From positions 1 through 44,113 of the forward strand of contig JAIQES010000038.1 in NCBI GenBank assembly GCA_020073705.1: 44,113 nt of DNA, read 5' to 3'. Made by a program: the position numbers and the translations under genes. Shown one piece after another: positions 6,132-12,216 of this stretch; positions within the stretch are counted from its first letter, which is position 1, and each line of letters begins with the position of its first letter. The notes beneath the pieces are model-generated. The model was not told the DNA's origin. It saw only the letters and a program-made list of their open reading frames with translations, and did no database searches. The stretch is from Terriglobia bacterium (GTDB taxonomy: Bacteria; Acidobacteriota; Terriglobia; Acidiferrales; UBA7541).

Positions 6132-6208
6132 AGGCCCGTAGCTCAGTTGGTTAGAGCGCTACCTTGACACGGTAGAGGTCTGCGGTTCGAGTCCGCACGG
6201 GCCTACCA
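6132..6208 (+). tRNA. tRNA-Val (anticodon GAC)
   Basis: Full cloverleaf with an encoded CCA. Acceptor stem AGGCCCG/CGGGCCT, D arm GCTC/GAGC, anticodon arm CTACC-TTGACAC-GGTAG giving anticodon GAC, variable loop AGGTC, T arm TGCGG-TTCGAGT-CCGCA, discriminator A. Its last 45 nt are repeated, with changes, at 10660-10704. A possible -10 (TAGAAT, 6112-6117) lies upstream without a clear -35. Confidence 0.97.
6164..6208 (+). repeat. Left copy of tRNA 3'-end direct repeat (att-like)
   Basis: The 3' part of tRNA-Val from TTGACAC to CCA. It is identical to 10660-10704 over the first 19 nt (TTGACACGGTAGAGGTCTG), over GTTCGAGTC, and over CACGGGCCTACCA. It differs only by two dinucleotides in the T stem. 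Confidence 0.75.
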
Positions 6209-6269
6209 TTCTTTTCAATACTTTAGAGAGTTTTCTTCGGAATCGGACAGAAACTTCACCTGTAATTCT

Positions 6270-6482
6270 TCACGTGTAAGGTGGCCGCTTCGGTCTACAT
6301 AATGGCGGCGGTCTCTCTCCCGTCACCTCGTTAACACGCGCAAGCAGATCCTCTGTATTCAGCGGAACCATACAAACTCGTATGGCATTGGCTTCGGCTA
6401 GTAACGGATTGCGTACCTCTCTATGCGCTGTAAATAGACGCGTTAGCGCCACATGATAACCTAACAGTATGATTGTGATCAA
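6270..6482 (-). pseudogene. Remnant of a response-regulator receiver domain (C-terminal part)
   Basis: A 70-codon frame whose residues line up with the second half of a CheY-like receiver. TAH stands where the conserved Thr/Ala lie. Twenty-one residues later NAIRVCMVPL aligns with the usual GAxxFLxKPF, and LNTEDLLARVNEV matches the last helix. The phosphate-contacting Lys is replaced by Val, the usual Gly by Asn, and the N-terminal half with the phospho-acceptor Asp is missing. I read it as a decayed fragment just inside the island next to the tRNA. Chance resemblance remains possible. The rest of 6209-6672 shows no convincing gene. Confidence 0.35.
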
Positions 6483-6672
6483 AACGTGCTTTCTAGATTC
6501 GTATGATTAACACTCGGAATCATTCGAAGACAGCGAACCGACTCTCGAATAGGCCTGAGGGATTCAAAGGCGGACGGTTCTCCGAGGCTGCGCAATTCGA
6601 TTTTGCAGCACAAAACTGGCAGGGCTTGCACTTTTCTTTGGCCCTCACATTGAACAGATAAGCTTTGGGGCA

Positions 6673-7980
6673 GTGTGTCCAAATGCAAAATTCGAAGGGG
6701 TGCGGCGGCAAATTCCGGCCTGTCGCCGCATTGCCTTGCCGCTCGGATTACTTATGGGGATTCTCCTGGCGACCCGCGCGGCCTCGGGACAACAGCAGCA
6801 GCCTCCAGAGTGGGAGATGCAGGTCCGGAAGTACGTTGAGGCTCACGATTGGACGTCCGCACTGAAGATTGTGGATTCCGAAGTCGCCCTTGCTCCGCGG
6901 GACATGGACATCCGGGCGTGGCGCGCACGAGTTCTGGCGTGGTCTGGGGATCTTTCTGGCGCCGAAAAAGAGTACCTCGCGATCGTCACGGTTGTCCCCA
7001 ATGACCCGGATGACTGGATGGGCTTGGGCAATGTCTATCTCCGGCAAAGCAGGACCGACGAAGCGCTGCGGGCACTGGACCGCGCTGTCGAGCTTGACCC
7101 CAAGCGCGCCGACCTCCGTGAGGCCCACGCTCGAACGTTGCGTGCCGCGGGAGAACGCGCGGAAGCACGCCTCGAGTTTCAGCGGGCGCTCAGTCTGGAT
7201 CCGTCCAGTCCAGATGCCCGCGTCGGACTGGCGTCCCTGAGCATTGAGCGCAAACACGAACTGCGGTTCGGCGAGGGAAACGACACGTTCAATTTCGCAA
7301 ACGCCAATCATGACGGATGGATAAGCCTGATCTCGAATTGGACTCCGCATTGGACGACCAGCGTTTCAGGAGATTTTTTTGAGATATTCGGTGTCAACGC
7401 CGGAAAGTTCGTGGGCAGTGTGACGGGCCGCTTGTCCGGCTGGGGAGCTCTGACCATCGGCTGCGCGGCCGCTCACGACAATGCCGTTATTCCCAGGACC
7501 GAAGCTTTTTTCAACCTCGATCGCGGGTGGAAGATCGGGGAAACGAGGCCCATACGAGGGATTGAATTTGCGTATGGACAGCACTGGTATTGGTATGCGG
7601 CGTCGCGGATTTTAACTGTGAATGGCTCCAGCATTTTATATTTGCCGAACGACTGGACATTGTCCCTGGGAATCACCGACGCGAGAAGCGCCTTTTCCGG
7701 CACCGGGACGCAATGGCGGCTATCCGGGAGCAGTCGCTTGGGATTTCCGCTAGCGCGTTGGGAGGGCAGTTCGCTGTCGGGCAATATTCTATTCGCGGTG
7801 GGCACGGAAAATTTTGCGCACGTAGACCAGATCGGGAGTTTCTCTTCCCATACGTATGGCGGTGGATTGCGTTTCCAATTCGCCCGGTATCAGGACGTGA
7901 CTGGCTACTTCGCCTATCAAAAGCGTACGCAAGACAGAACAGACACGACGTTTGGGTTCAGCTATGGCATCCATTTTTGA
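6673..7980 (+). CDS. TPR-domain outer-membrane beta-barrel protein (YaiO/PgaA-like export porin)
   Basis: A 435-aa exported protein with three parts. A signal peptide comes first (hydrophobic core ~20-36, cleavage near AASG-Q). About four TPR-type helix pairs span ~48-190, with W-x-G-x-x-Y and ALxxLDRAVELDP patterns. The rest, ~195-435, alternates polar and aromatic residues as in a beta barrel and ends in phenylalanine (GFSYGIHF), the usual sorting signal for barrel assembly. TPR plus barrel is the architecture of polysaccharide exporters such as PgaA and BcsC, and the barrel resembles the YaiO type. The GTG start at 6673 is uncertain. It overlaps the HEAT-protein gene by 17 bp. Likely role: outer-membrane exit for the polymer made by the glycosyltransferase two genes on. 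Confidence 0.75.
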   Translation: MCPNAKFEGVRRQIPACRRIALPLGLLMGILLATRAASGQQQQPPEWEMQVRKYVEAHDWTSALKIVDSEVALAPRDMDIRAWRARVLAWSGDLSGAEKEYLAIVTVVPNDPDDWMGLGNVYLRQSRTDEALRALDRAVELDPKRADLREAHARTLRAAGERAEARLEFQRALSLDPSSPDARVGLASLSIERKHELRFGEGNDTFNFANANHDGWISLISNWTPHWTTSVSGDFFEIFGVNAGKFVGSVTGRLSGWGALTIGCAAAHDNAVIPRTEAFFNLDRGWKIGETRPIRGIEFAYGQHWYWYAASRILTVNGSSILYLPNDWTLSLGITDARSAFSGTGTQWRLSGSSRLGFPLARWEGSSLSGNILFAVGTENFAHVDQIGSFSSHTYGGGLRFQFARYQDVTGYFAYQKRTQDRTDTTFGFSYGIHF

Positions 7981-9181
7981 AAAACTCTGGAGGCTCGGCC
8001 CAGCAACTTTCGTGCTGAAGGCCATTTTTGCGGCCATCGTGGCGAACGGGATGCTGCTTACGTTCATTCTGCTTCGACGGACATACCGAAAGTGGTATTT
8101 CGCGAAGCGTGATGCGCGCGTCTACGAATTGCGACAAAGTTGGGAAGCATTGATTTCCGGAGAAATTCCATTCGAGACATGGCGAAGGAAAGCTTTTGAC
8201 AGACGGATCGTCGAAACGATCGTGCTGGACGCGTTCGAAGCAGCCGGGGCAGAAGAATCGGCGCGATTGCTGAAATTTCTCCGAACTAGCGGCTTGATCG
8301 AAAAGCGCATCTTTGAAGCCCGGCAACTCACGGGCTGGCGACGGATGCGGGCGTTGGTGGCCCTTGGGCGTACCCGCGCGCCGGAAGGTATTCCCGCGTT
8401 GGCCGAAGGTTTGCGGGACTCCGCTCTAGAAACTCGGTTGGCATCGGTGCGAGGATTGGGGCGAATGGCCTGTCCCCAAGCCGGTGAGGAGATACTGGCT
8501 TGGCTGGCAGAGCAGGGACTCACCGTGCCAGCGCTGCCGCTACAAAGTGCACTCATGCAATGCTGCGCTGAATGCCCCCAATTGCTGCTTCCCCACGTCC
8601 GGAACGCTCAAGGTCAACTGCGCGAAGTGCTTGGGCGGGTGCTTGGCGAAGTGGCGACTCCATCGCTCGCTTTGGACCTGCTGCAATTCGTAGGCGATGA
8701 CCTCGATGAATTGCGAGCCGCAGCGGCACGGGCAATGTCGCAGTCGCCTTCGGGCCTTGCGCCCGACGTCCTTAATGAGCTGGCGGGCGACCCCGTCTGG
8801 TTCGTGCGCCTACGCGCAATCGTAAGTTTGGGCAAACTATCTCATCGCCGCGCAATTCCTCCGCTGCTGCGTGGGCTGGCGGATTCGAACCGTCTGGTGC
8901 GATTGCGCGCGGCGGAAGCGCTGGTGGGACTCAAGACGGAGATGCTTCCGATATTTGAACAGGTGGTGGCGGCGCAAGATCGCTACGGCATGTACGCCTA
9001 CCTAGCCGCGCTCGAGAATGCAGACTTGCGAGGGAAGCTTGAGGCTGAACTGCAAGCCAGCATACCAGTCAACGAAGAGGAGAAGAAGCGTCTCCTGAAT
9101 GTGCTGCAGGCGGGTAGACTGCCTGCGGAAGATGCTGCAAAAGCGGAGAGAGTCGTCCAGAGCGCAGTGGAACTTCGATGA
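7964..9181 (+). CDS. Membrane-anchored HEAT-repeat protein
   Basis: About 405 aa. One N-terminal transmembrane helix (LGPATFVLKAIFAAIVANGMLL, residues ~11-32) is followed by a basic stretch and then an all-helical region. From about residue 120 it shows repeated HEAT/PBS-lyase-like units (RALVALGRTRAPEGIPALAEGL, RAIVSLGKLSHRRAIPPLLRGL, RAAEALVGLKT). Such repeats are scaffolds, so it may hold the synthase and the exporter together; that is inference from context. ATG 7964 is preferred over the TTG at 7952. The gene overlaps its upstream neighbour by 17 bp and its downstream neighbour by 4 bp (ATGA), so the three genes are probably translated together. Confidence 0.8.
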   Translation: MASIFEKLWRLGPATFVLKAIFAAIVANGMLLTFILLRRTYRKWYFAKRDARVYELRQSWEALISGEIPFETWRRKAFDRRIVETIVLDAFEAAGAEESARLLKFLRTSGLIEKRIFEARQLTGWRRMRALVALGRTRAPEGIPALAEGLRDSALETRLASVRGLGRMACPQAGEEILAWLAEQGLTVPALPLQSALMQCCAECPQLLLPHVRNAQGQLREVLGRVLGEVATPSLALDLLQFVGDDLDELRAAAARAMSQSPSGLAPDVLNELAGDPVWFVRLRAIVSLGKLSHRRAIPPLLRGLADSNRLVRLRAAEALVGLKTEMLPIFEQVVAAQDRYGMYAYLAALENADLRGKLEAELQASIPVNEEEKKRLLNVLQAGRLPAEDAAKAERVVQSAVELR

Positions 9182-10623
9182 TTCGATTTCTGGATATTTC
9201 GAACCACACCCTTTTCTGGTACTACTTAGCCAACAATCTGGCCTATTTGATGATGTTGATTGTGGCGCTGAGGACGAGTGCGGCCCATCAACGAAGGCTG
9301 GAAAGCTATCGCTTGCGGTGGATCGGAGAAACACCGTTGGCGCCGCCAATTACAATCATTGTCCCTGCGCATAATGAAGAAGGTTCCATCCGCGTTGCAG
9401 TGCGAAACCTTCTAGAAAATCATTACCCGCAACTCGAGGTGATCGTGGTCAACGATGGATCAGAAGATCGGACACTCGAAGCGATGCGGGACGAGTTCCG
9501 CTTGCAACCGACCCGAACGGTGTATGTCCCGAAAATGGCCAGCGCGCCAATAAGCGGATTGTATCGAAGCGAGGTGGACGCAAGACTGGTGGTTGTTGAT
9601 AAAAAACCTGGAGGAAGCAAAGCAGACGCGGTGAACGCGGGTTTGAATGCGGCGACTTCGCCTTATGTCTGCGTCGTCGACGCCGACTCGATTCTCGAAC
9701 ACGATGCGCTGCTTCGAATCATGGTGCCCGTCCTGGACGACCCTGAGCACGTCGTAGCGGTGGGCGGAATCATCCGCGTATTGAACGGATCGGAGATCGT
9801 GATGGGACGCTTGCGGCGCGTGCGTCTTCCGCGCAAGAGCATTGAAGTGATCCAGGTGATTGAGTACCTCCGCGCGTTCTTGATTGGCAGAGAGGCGTGG
9901 GCGCAAGGAAACATGCTAATGATAATTTCCGGAGCGTTCGGTTTGTTTCGAACGGACCTCGTGCGCGCGATAGGCGGCTATCGACCGCACTCGATTGGCG
10001 AAGATTTCGATCTTGTGGCACGTTTGCACCGTCACCTGTTGGAACAAAGTGCTGAGTATCGAATTCTTTTCGTTCCGGACCCGATGTGCTGGACTGAAGC
10101 GCCTTCCGACGCGAAATCGCTGGGAAGGCAGCGAGCGCGTTGGCAGAAGGGACTGTTGGACGTGTTGTGGTCCAACCGGGACATGCTCTTCAAATGGCGA
10201 TACGGTCGGATCGGTTTTCTTGCGCTTCCTTACTTGTGGGTGTTTGAGTTATTAGCCCCCGTCATCGAAATCGGAGGGATCGTAACCATCGTTCTTGCGG
10301 CCTGCCTGGGCGCGCTGAGCCGCGAATTCTTTTTTCAGTTCCTGCTTTTCGGCTATGCTTTTGCGACGGTGATTTCAATCGGCTCAGTCTTGCAAGAGGA
10401 AATCACTTACAAACGGTACAATGACTGGCAGGATGTAGCTCGGCTGGTGAGTTACTGTTTTCTGGAGCATTTCCCCTACCGCCAACTGCACATGATCTGG
10501 CGGCTGCAGGGTCTCTGGCAGTACCTGTGGGGGGACAACGATTGGAGACCACTAAAGCGTAAAGGGATGGAGTCCGCGACTATTCCTTTGGTACACCGCG
10601 GTGTGCCTCACGAGGATAGCTGA
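9178..10623 (+). CDS. Processive family-2 glycosyltransferase (polysaccharide synthase, PgaC-like)
   Basis: A 481-aa inner-membrane GT2 enzyme. An N-terminal transmembrane helix (12-31) is followed by the cytoplasmic GT-A domain. It carries IVPAHNEEGS, VNDGS (D93), the metal-binding DAD (168-170), the acceptor-site GED (274-276) and QRARW (318-322), the QxxRW signature of processive synthases such as hyaluronan, cellulose and poly-GlcNAc synthases. Two to three more membrane helices follow at ~345-415. The sugar cannot be read from the sequence. No PilZ domain, deacetylase or hydrolase accompanies it, unlike bcs and pga operons. ATGA overlap with the HEAT gene. Confidence 0.88.
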   Translation: MIRFLDISNHTLFWYYLANNLAYLMMLIVALRTSAAHQRRLESYRLRWIGETPLAPPITIIVPAHNEEGSIRVAVRNLLENHYPQLEVIVVNDGSEDRTLEAMRDEFRLQPTRTVYVPKMASAPISGLYRSEVDARLVVVDKKPGGSKADAVNAGLNAATSPYVCVVDADSILEHDALLRIMVPVLDDPEHVVAVGGIIRVLNGSEIVMGRLRRVRLPRKSIEVIQVIEYLRAFLIGREAWAQGNMLMIISGAFGLFRTDLVRAIGGYRPHSIGEDFDLVARLHRHLLEQSAEYRILFVPDPMCWTEAPSDAKSLGRQRARWQKGLLDVLWSNRDMLFKWRYGRIGFLALPYLWVFELLAPVIEIGGIVTIVLAACLGALSREFFFQFLLFGYAFATVISIGSVLQEEITYKRYNDWQDVARLVSYCFLEHFPYRQLHMIWRLQGLWQYLWGDNDWRPLKRKGMESATIPLVHRGVPHEDS

Positions 10624-10659
10624 ATATTTTAGTTTCACATTTTTCCAAATCACGGCCCT

Positions 10660-10704
10660 TTGACACGGTAGAGGTCTGGAGTTCGAGTCTCCACGGGCCT
10701 ACCA
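10660..10704 (+). repeat. Displaced tRNA-Val 3' fragment (right att-like repeat)
   Basis: Forty-five nt equal in length and register to the end of tRNA-Val: anticodon loop, 3' anticodon strand, variable loop, complete T arm, acceptor 3' strand and CCA. There is no 5' half upstream, so it cannot be a tRNA. The T stem is TGGAG/CTCCA against TGCGG/CCGCA in the intact gene; both sides changed together and pairing is kept. The sequence from here to 10944 shows no gene. Confidence 0.75.
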
Positions 10705-10944
10705 CTTCATTGCGATGGACCTAACCACTTATAGTTTTCCGTGTACCCTTGCGCATACCATATTATGTTCCGCTGGGCCAGCCGGCGACCCATGACTAGA
10801 CGCACCGTTGTTCCAATGTTGGCCGACTGAGATGTTCGATCCGAAACATCCTGGATGACAGTCTATGACAGTGAGGTGGAGATGTTGCAGAAGTTGTCTG
10901 GCGGATCGCGGCCCCCGACGTTCTATATGCATGTGACCGGGCCA

Positions 10945-12216
10945 TTAATGGACGCGGCGGATGCGGGCGCCGATCGAGGAGAGTTTCTCTTCGATGCGTT
11001 CGTAGCCGCGATCAATGTGGTAGACGCGGTCAACGATGGTTTCGCCGCGCGCGACCAATGCAGCCAGAACCAGCGAAGCGCTCGCCCGAAGGTCCGATGC
11101 GATCACGCTTGTGCCGGAGAGCGTGGAAGGGCCGTGGACGATGGCGCGGCGGCCTTCGATCGAAATATTCGCACCCATGCGGATCATTTCGCTGGCGTGA
11201 AGGAAACGGTTTTCGAAGATCGTTTCGGTGATCACCGACGTGCCTTCGGCCTGTGTAGCCAGCGCCATGAATTGCGCCTGCATGTCCGTGGCGAAGCCGG
11301 GATATTCCTCGGTCCTGACGTCGGCAGCGGCCAGCGTTTTCGCGCCGCGGACGGCTAGTGTGCCAGGAGCAGTTTCATGGATCTCGACGCCAGTTTCGCG
11401 CAGCTTGGCGATAACCGAGGCCAGATGTTCGGGAGCGCAACCGGTGAGTTCGAGTGCGCCGTTCGTGATGGCCCCGGCCACGAGAAATGTGCCGGCTTCG
11501 ATGCGGTCGGGAATGACGGTATGCTGGGTTGCGTGGAGTTTCTGCTTTCCGCGGACGCGAATCGTCGGCGTTCCCGCACCCTCGATTTCCGCCCCCATCT
11601 TGATGAGTAGATCCGCCAGGTCGGTAATCTCCGGCTCGCGCGCTGCATTCTCAATTTTAGTTTCACCTTCCGCAAGCGCCGCTGCCATCAGCACGTTTTC
11701 TGTTCCGGTGACGGTGATCTTGTCGAAGATCACGTGCCCGCCGCGCAGGCGGCCGCTGCCCGGAACGCGGGCTTCCACGTAACCATGGGAAGTACTGATT
11801 TCCGCGCCCATTTGTTCGAGCGCCTTCAGATGAAGGTCCACTGGACGCGCGCCGATGGCGCAGCCCCCGGGGAGCGAGACGCGCGCAGACCCAGTGCGGC
11901 CGATGAGCGGGCCAAGCGTGAGGATTGAGGCGCGCATCGTACGAACAAGTTCGTATGGTGCTTCCGCACCATTAATTTTCTCGGCCCGGATGATCATGGT
12001 GGTGGGGGGTAGTTCGGGCGTTTCGACCACCGCGCCCATGTGCGCGAGCAAACGGCCCATTGTGATGATGTCTCGGACTTGCGGAATGTTGTCCAGTTCG
12101 ACGCGCTCGCAGGTCAGCAGCGCCGCGGCCATCGCGGGCAGGGCGGCATTCTTTGCGCCGCCGATGCGTACGGATCCTTCGAGCGGCCTTCCACCTTCAA
12201 TCAGGAATCTATCCAT
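10945..12216 (-). CDS. murA: UDP-N-acetylglucosamine 1-carboxyvinyltransferase (MurA)
   Basis: First committed enzyme of peptidoglycan synthesis; adds enolpyruvate to UDP-GlcNAc in the cytoplasm. About 423 aa, the normal length. K22-N23 in the KNAALPA motif and the catalytic C119 in LPGGCAIGARPVDLH are present, so this is a fosfomycin-sensitive type with Cys rather than Asp. The ATG at 12216 starts at the homology and overlaps the murQ stop by 8 bp, so murA is translationally coupled behind murQ. Pairing de novo synthesis with the salvage enzyme MurQ is unusual and suggests the cluster is devoted to wall turnover. Confidence 0.96.
   Translation of the reverse strand: MDRFLIEGGRPLEGSVRIGGAKNAALPAMAAALLTCERVELDNIPQVRDIITMGRLLAHMGAVVETPELPPTTMIIRAEKINGAEAPYELVRTMRASILTLGPLIGRTGSARVSLPGGCAIGARPVDLHLKALEQMGAEISTSHGYVEARVPGSGRLRGGHVIFDKITVTGTENVLMAAALAEGETKIENAAREPEITDLADLLIKMGAEIEGAGTPTIRVRGKQKLHATQHTVIPDRIEAGTFLVAGAITNGALELTGCAPEHLASVIAKLRETGVEIHETAPGTLAVRGAKTLAAADVRTEEYPGFATDMQAQFMALATQAEGTSVITETIFENRFLHASEMIRMGANISIEGRRAIVHGPSTLSGTSVIASDLRASASLVLAALVARGETIVDRVYHIDRGYERIEEKLSSIGARIRRVH

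Follow-up and report, generated by a model that had tools for sequence, protein, structure and literature searches.

A probable integrase-less element remnant at tRNA-Val(GAC) in a Terriglobia bacterium, bounded by tRNA 3′ ends with different T arms

Transfer RNA genes are classic docking sites of islands. Those with an anticodon-centred attP (Islander class A) make up 2083 of 3919 islands (PMC4383910); a regenerated tRNA and a displaced 3′ fragment in the same orientation mark their ends, and the Islander definition requires an integrase in between. Cis-mobilizable elements (CIMEs) consist of cargo held between attL and attR without integrase or transfer genes, and at target-gene ends they are described to accrete together with IMEs or ICEs (PMC5704250); accretion of CIMEs at tRNA genes is credited there to Pavlovic 2004. 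The closest documented parallel to the locus described here is the ssrA array of Dehalococcoides, in which tandem units each end in a copy of the RNA-gene 3′ end and 15 units without an integration module were read as possible CIMEs (PMC3146451). Lastly, tycheposons are cargo units bordered by tRNA genes, which the account drawn on here (PMC10872708) describes with a tyrosine recombinase.

Here we describe a locus within a 44,113-nucleotide stretch of contig JAIQES010000038.1 (the window), part of a 3.79-Mb genome (G000) that we compared with draft assemblies of its relatives, those with named records being MAGs. We consider it very likely that positions 6209–10704 are what remains of a tyrosine-integrase element integrated at tRNA-Val(GAC), now non-autonomous and probably locked. 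As in class A islands, the ends are marked by a regenerated tRNA and a displaced 3′ fragment in the same orientation, but the interval holds no integrase, and the lack of a recombinase likewise sets it apart from tycheposons as described in that account. With CIMEs it shares attL/attR-bounded cargo free of integrase and transfer genes and a tandem arrangement with a further unit at a single tRNA; it differs from them in its deleted right arm and probable loss of mobility, in att sites whose T arms are unlike by compensated pairs, and in having parent elements known in the family by their integrases only, not as conjugative. Whereas the Dehalococcoides units involve a serine recombinase, the tmRNA gene, crossover in the T loop and a 20-bp repeat, the acidobacterial units involve tyrosine integrases, tRNA-Val(GAC), an apparent anticodon-loop crossover and a 45-nt repeat.

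The tRNA-Val gene and its displaced 3′ end

6132–6208, + strand: tRNA-Val(GAC), intact, CCA encoded, now attL (ARAGORN and sequence)
6164–6170, + strand: TTGACAC, anticodon loop and inferred 7-nt crossover core, left copy (fragment starts and lone 5′-half ends in several genomes)
10660–10704, + strand: attR, the displaced 3′ end of tRNA-Val; T arm TGGAG/CTCCA (sequence matches)

The sole tRNA called by ARAGORN in the window is tRNA-Val(gac) at 6132–6208 on the + strand, with the T arm TGCGG/CCGCA. Its last 45 nt (tRNA positions 33–77) are repeated on the same strand at 10660–10704, where 41 of 45 positions are identical and a 5′ half is missing, as a preliminary description of this DNA had reported. 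The match reached an E of about 1e-11 in a whole-genome search, and chance is a negligible explanation for it: a random 45-mer would be expected to match equally well 8e-14 times per 3.8 Mb. No second such fragment was found in the 3.79-Mb genome, the remaining matches being other tRNAs or short. Gene and fragment share a 19-nt core, TTGACACGGTAGAGGTCTG, and differ in two dinucleotides (6183–6184, CG in the gene vs GA in the fragment; 6194–6195, CG vs TC). These four nucleotides form two neighbouring T-stem pairs, C-G and G-C in the gene and G-C and A-T in the fragment, so that pairing is intact in both copies; on each of these points our sequence comparison agrees with the preliminary description.

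The same description had argued that a decaying copy would not keep paired changes, and a wider sample bears this out. Across 15 distinct 3′ halves from relatives of the genome, the T stem was paired in 98.7% of cases, and double-changed T-stem cells numbered 16, compared with 4.3 in shuffles. With pairing maintained and double changes far above the shuffled level, the fragment is best regarded as a genuine tRNA allele and not as a decayed copy.

The match between gene and fragment starts exactly at the anticodon loop. Most fragments in the family begin at this same point and have 5′ flanks that are not tRNA-derived, and lone tRNA-Val 5′ halves ending at the anticodon loop are also present in relatives. 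Together, these fragment starts and 5′-half ends point to the 7-nt loop TTGACAC as the putative crossover site. In the window, tRNA gene and displaced fragment lie in one orientation on one replicon, the arrangement by which Islander recognises islands, and the duplication spans the anticodon loop to the tRNA 3′ end, which defines the anticodon-loop class of attachment sites; the earlier reading of the repeat as an integration footprint at a tRNA 3′ end is thus supported.

Lone 5′ halves that stop at the loop and continue into non-tRNA sequence occur at L081 10626–10664 (G001:C56), L161 4912 (G011), L162 3256 (G032) and L163 8815 (G042). The continuation in G001:C56, AGCGGC, is the inverted partner of the arm sequence GCCGCT.

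Attachment arms and integrases

6209–6285, + strand: left (P′) attachment arm, type F1 (blastn, arm list)
6257–6265, + strand: arm-type repeat 1, CACCTGTAA, +49 from the tRNA end (motif scan)
6271–6279, + strand: arm-type repeat 2, CACGTGTAA, +63, one mismatch (motif scan)
6215–6285, − strand: possible relic of an integrase-gene 3′ end, open tail ...EELQVKFLSDSEENSLKY* (translation; analogy with G033, G001:C94 and G091:C99)
10648–10659, + strand: stump of the right (P) attachment arm, AATCACGGCCCT (comparison with G001, motif scan)
10705–10728, + strand: F2-type left arm of a second unit, proximal part only, CTTCATTGCGATGGACCTAACCAC; sequence beyond it diverged (sequence comparison, arm list)

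Many genomes of the family carry the tRNA-Val 3′ end outside the tRNA gene as well, some of them in several copies, and the sequences next to these copies form recurrent arms. Window positions 6164–6284, which include the tRNA 3′ end, are 97% identical to a site in G005 over the 121 nt matched by blastn. Left arms of this type (F1) carry a 9-nt repeat pair at +49/+63, and the repeat is identical in kind to that of the right arms, where a pair of YACCTGTAA (9 nt) stands at exactly −104/−92 on the 5′ side of seven fragments (six in the two congeners G001 and G005, one in G064 of genus g5). Type F2 left arms have pairs of another repeat, TCCGTACCG, at +51/+63 and +59/+71. The background of arm repeats in our motif scan was about 0.18 per kb per strand. 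Lambda-type tyrosine integrases bind arms of such layout, and the combination of a tRNA-derived repeat with these arms fits tyrosine-integrase att sites rather than an integron cassette, a reading considered solely for the tandem, cassette-like look of the units.

At the right end of the window's unit, the fragment is preceded by AATCACGGCCCT, which is not tRNA and has close variants at the same position before fragments in related genomes. About 288 nt present in G001 are absent from this end, among them the −104/−92 repeat pair, so that of the two att sites the left retains its arm repeats and the right has lost them. No tyrosine recombinase was found on the contig (whole-genome search with PF00589; Pfam search of the three ORFs), and no homologue of the G005 integrase was found in the genome at E<=1e-25; the interval therefore lacks the internal integrase of an Islander island. 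Given the right-arm deletion and the lack of an integrase, the unit is probably locked, and the island of the preliminary description is not an intact one. The unit does have the related attL and attR bounds of a CIME, and Pfam and NCBIfam searches found no integration or transfer genes within them. It therefore resembles a CIME but is not a proven one, since functional att sites define CIMEs and are doubtful here with the right arm deleted.

Candidate sources of these arms are visible in relatives. G033, G001:C94 and G091:C99 each have an integrase gene whose end lies a few nucleotides from tRNA-Val(GAC) or a fragment of it. An integrase gene of G005 aligns at its 3′ end with the F2 arm for 66 nt, which makes the F2 left arm, at least, the 3′ end of an integrase gene. 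By analogy, the F1 left arm of the window may have the same origin; direct alignment between the F1 arm and a G001 integrase is short, and no intact F1 element with an integrase was found among the relatives. The G033 integrase was considered as a general parent but set aside as the F1 arm's cognate enzyme, because most of its closest homologues are found at a different tRNA (Arg, Pro, Asn, Ala and others). A 400-aa ORF adjoining the G001 fragment, considered as a recombinase, is without a Pfam match. By our own count of domain matches against fragment positions, 10 of 12 att-bounded intervals in the Pfam-searched genomes have no integrase. Among 2.9 million viral contigs, we found no phage carrier of the same tRNA 3′ half.

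The unit may never have integrated as such and may instead have formed by deletion between att sites of a larger tandem array, which would have joined the arms of different elements and removed the integrase, a route to which we give roughly one chance in three. Units that combine an F2 left arm with an F1 right arm do exist (G005:C45 33390–22031; G001:C58, with one F2 site left), and such mixing within single units suggests deletion between att sites within arrays; the frequent absence of integrases from att-bounded intervals is in keeping with this. Against it, G000 and G001 are alike in their order of left arm, cargo and right arm, from which the unit either predates their split or moved whole. 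We regard this route as a refinement of the main explanation, that of a remnant of an integrated element, rather than a contradiction of it. In the locus numbering the mixed units are L071 7032–18391 (G005) and L069 825–9034 (G001). Some fragments are found on long contigs at a great distance from any tRNA-Val (G005:C19 and C36), a distribution that simple tandem insertion at a single gene leaves unaccounted for.

In G004 and G091, tRNA-Val is followed by an F2-type arm like that at 10705–10728, and in G001 and G005 such an arm stands after fragments. Its presence directly behind the displaced fragment indicates that a second, now eroded unit was once there and that 10705 is not original chromosome. 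The preliminary description had proposed that TGGAG/CTCCA joined to the 10705 flank would represent the empty site; as this flank is itself another unit's left arm, such a junction would not be virgin chromosome. We found no empty site in the murA, pnp, htrA and metH neighbourhoods of relatives, where tRNA-Val is absent; the best candidate, an htrA-metH contig of G003, stops at htrA. In none of the relatives examined does murA adjoin tRNA-Val, and it often faces pnp; in G000 it now adjoins the tRNA-Val array. The locus has been rearranged. In G000, murA (window position 10945) and pnp (L206 9333–11468, G000:C78) are on separate contigs, and they are neighbours in several relatives.

The cargo operon

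6673–7980, + strand: TPR protein, possible outer-membrane barrel, weak PgaA/BcsC-type TPR match (Pfam, NCBIfam)
7952–9181, + strand: HEAT-repeat protein (Pfam)
9178–10623, + strand: family-2 glycosyltransferase, PgaC/IcaA-like (Pfam, NCBIfam)

The three overlapping genes at 6673–10623 form a predicted operon that resembles an exopolysaccharide synthase/export set; the NCBIfam match of the glycosyltransferase scores 131.7 bits, below the equivalog cut-off of 422.3. In the congener G001, the equivalent operon is on contig C52, with an F1 left arm on one side and an intact right arm on the other; DNA identity is 88% over 4296 bp, and G001 has about 4.3 kb of extra sequence between left arm and operon. 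The glycosyltransferase is 90% identical between G000 and G001, against 76% for the G002 copy, although murA shows no such difference in these comparisons (80% and 81%). This closer relationship of the cassette between G000 and G001 fits lateral movement of the att-bounded cassette as a unit. Near the operon copies in G002, G021 and G032, no tRNA-Val fragment was seen.

The operon also occurs beside an intact tRNA-Val, and this arrangement bears on whether the fragment could be the decayed remains of a second full tRNA-Val gene downstream of the operon. In G008:C40 (L076 4895–9500), the homologous TPR-HEAT-glycosyltransferase operon precedes an intact tRNA-Val by about 330 bp instead of following it. 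The window's fragment, by contrast, sets in precisely at the anticodon loop, is complete from that point and has a perfect T stem; its 5′ flank is arm sequence common to fragments in G001, G005, G064 and G091, and a scan of the G008 region detected no arm repeats. We therefore consider a decayed second tRNA gene highly improbable and favour a 3′ end displaced by integration.

T-arm exchange and the history of the locus

According to the preliminary description, one of the two 3′ ends came from a tRNA of another lineage, and the host tRNA may carry the foreign T arm. The first part stands, in that the two 3′ ends derive from tRNAs with different T arms; the second probably has the direction wrong for the present-day locus. 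The resident TGCGG/CCGCA arm is typical of the genus, being found in all four full tRNA-Val genes seen there (G000, G002, G004 and G005). TGGAG/CTCCA is present as a fragment in G005 and the window; the only full genes found to have it are those of G065 and G083, MAGs of another genus, and a scan of 84,980 species with one genome each returned it in only 3 records. When the window's 5′ half is joined to the fragment, the result is a valid tRNA-Val identical at 77 of 77 nt to that of G083 and G065. This identity with the tRNA-Val of another genus indicates that a foreign 3′ end passed through the locus, as the displaced copy; the exotic allele is the one at 10660 and not the resident arm.

The opposite assignment makes the fragment the host's native 3′ end and the T arm of the resident tRNA-Val the foreign one. 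It draws on the canonical polarity of integration, whereby the gene is restored by the island and the old fragment is moved away (PMC4383910), so that until the last insertion the gene contained the copy now displaced. The distribution of the two arms within and outside the genus speaks against it, and another unit's arm stands directly 3′ of the fragment, so the fragment was probably element-borne too. We consider this assignment unlikely. Under the usual polarity, the displaced 3′ half belonged to the gene until the last insertion, and it had most likely been brought there by the older unit.

The sequence of events that we favour for the integrated element is as follows. An element with its own tRNA 3′ half would have undergone recombination with the host gene in the 7-nt anticodon loop, joining the host 5′ half to the element's TGCGG/CCGCA 3′ half and leaving the tRNA functional, while the earlier resident 3′ half (TGGAG/CTCCA) would have been pushed to the far end, at 10660–10704. 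The insertion would have occurred in front of an older unit, whose left arm starts at 10705 and whose import from another lineage the displaced 3′ half probably was. The unit has no integrase; the attachment arms and the three-gene exopolysaccharide-like operon are all that is left, as in most neighbouring units of relatives, and a deletion has taken the right arm's binding repeats. The footprint, the arms, the cargo held in common and this deletion are seen directly in the sequences; the crossover chemistry and the order of events are inferred, and past mobilisation may have relied on an integrase acting in trans.

More broadly, it is a tentative proposal, at somewhat less than even odds in our judgement, that elements carry tRNA-Val 3′ halves between genera and that their integrations overwrite the host T arm, which would make the resident gene a product of successive chimeras and the 10660 copy a past allele of another genus. 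A further 3′ half, with T arm AGGAG/CTCCT and acceptor CGTGCCT, spans two genera (L087 26–70 and L210 8130–8169 in G003; L251 713 and L252 4809 in G091); a tRNA made from it and the usual 5′ half would have a single mismatch in the acceptor.

In the literature searched, we found no papers on compensated T-stem exchange by integration. The island type is a known one, and its record of T-arm exchange is unusually legible: identical exchanged 3′ halves leave a tRNA unmarked, and here compensated T-stem differences label each half. Matching the displaced half to the whole tRNA gene of another genus gives a readable history under repeated integration, and tRNA-Val(GAC) emerges as a candidate docking hub for the whole family of these acidobacteria, where cargo units without an integrase are many.
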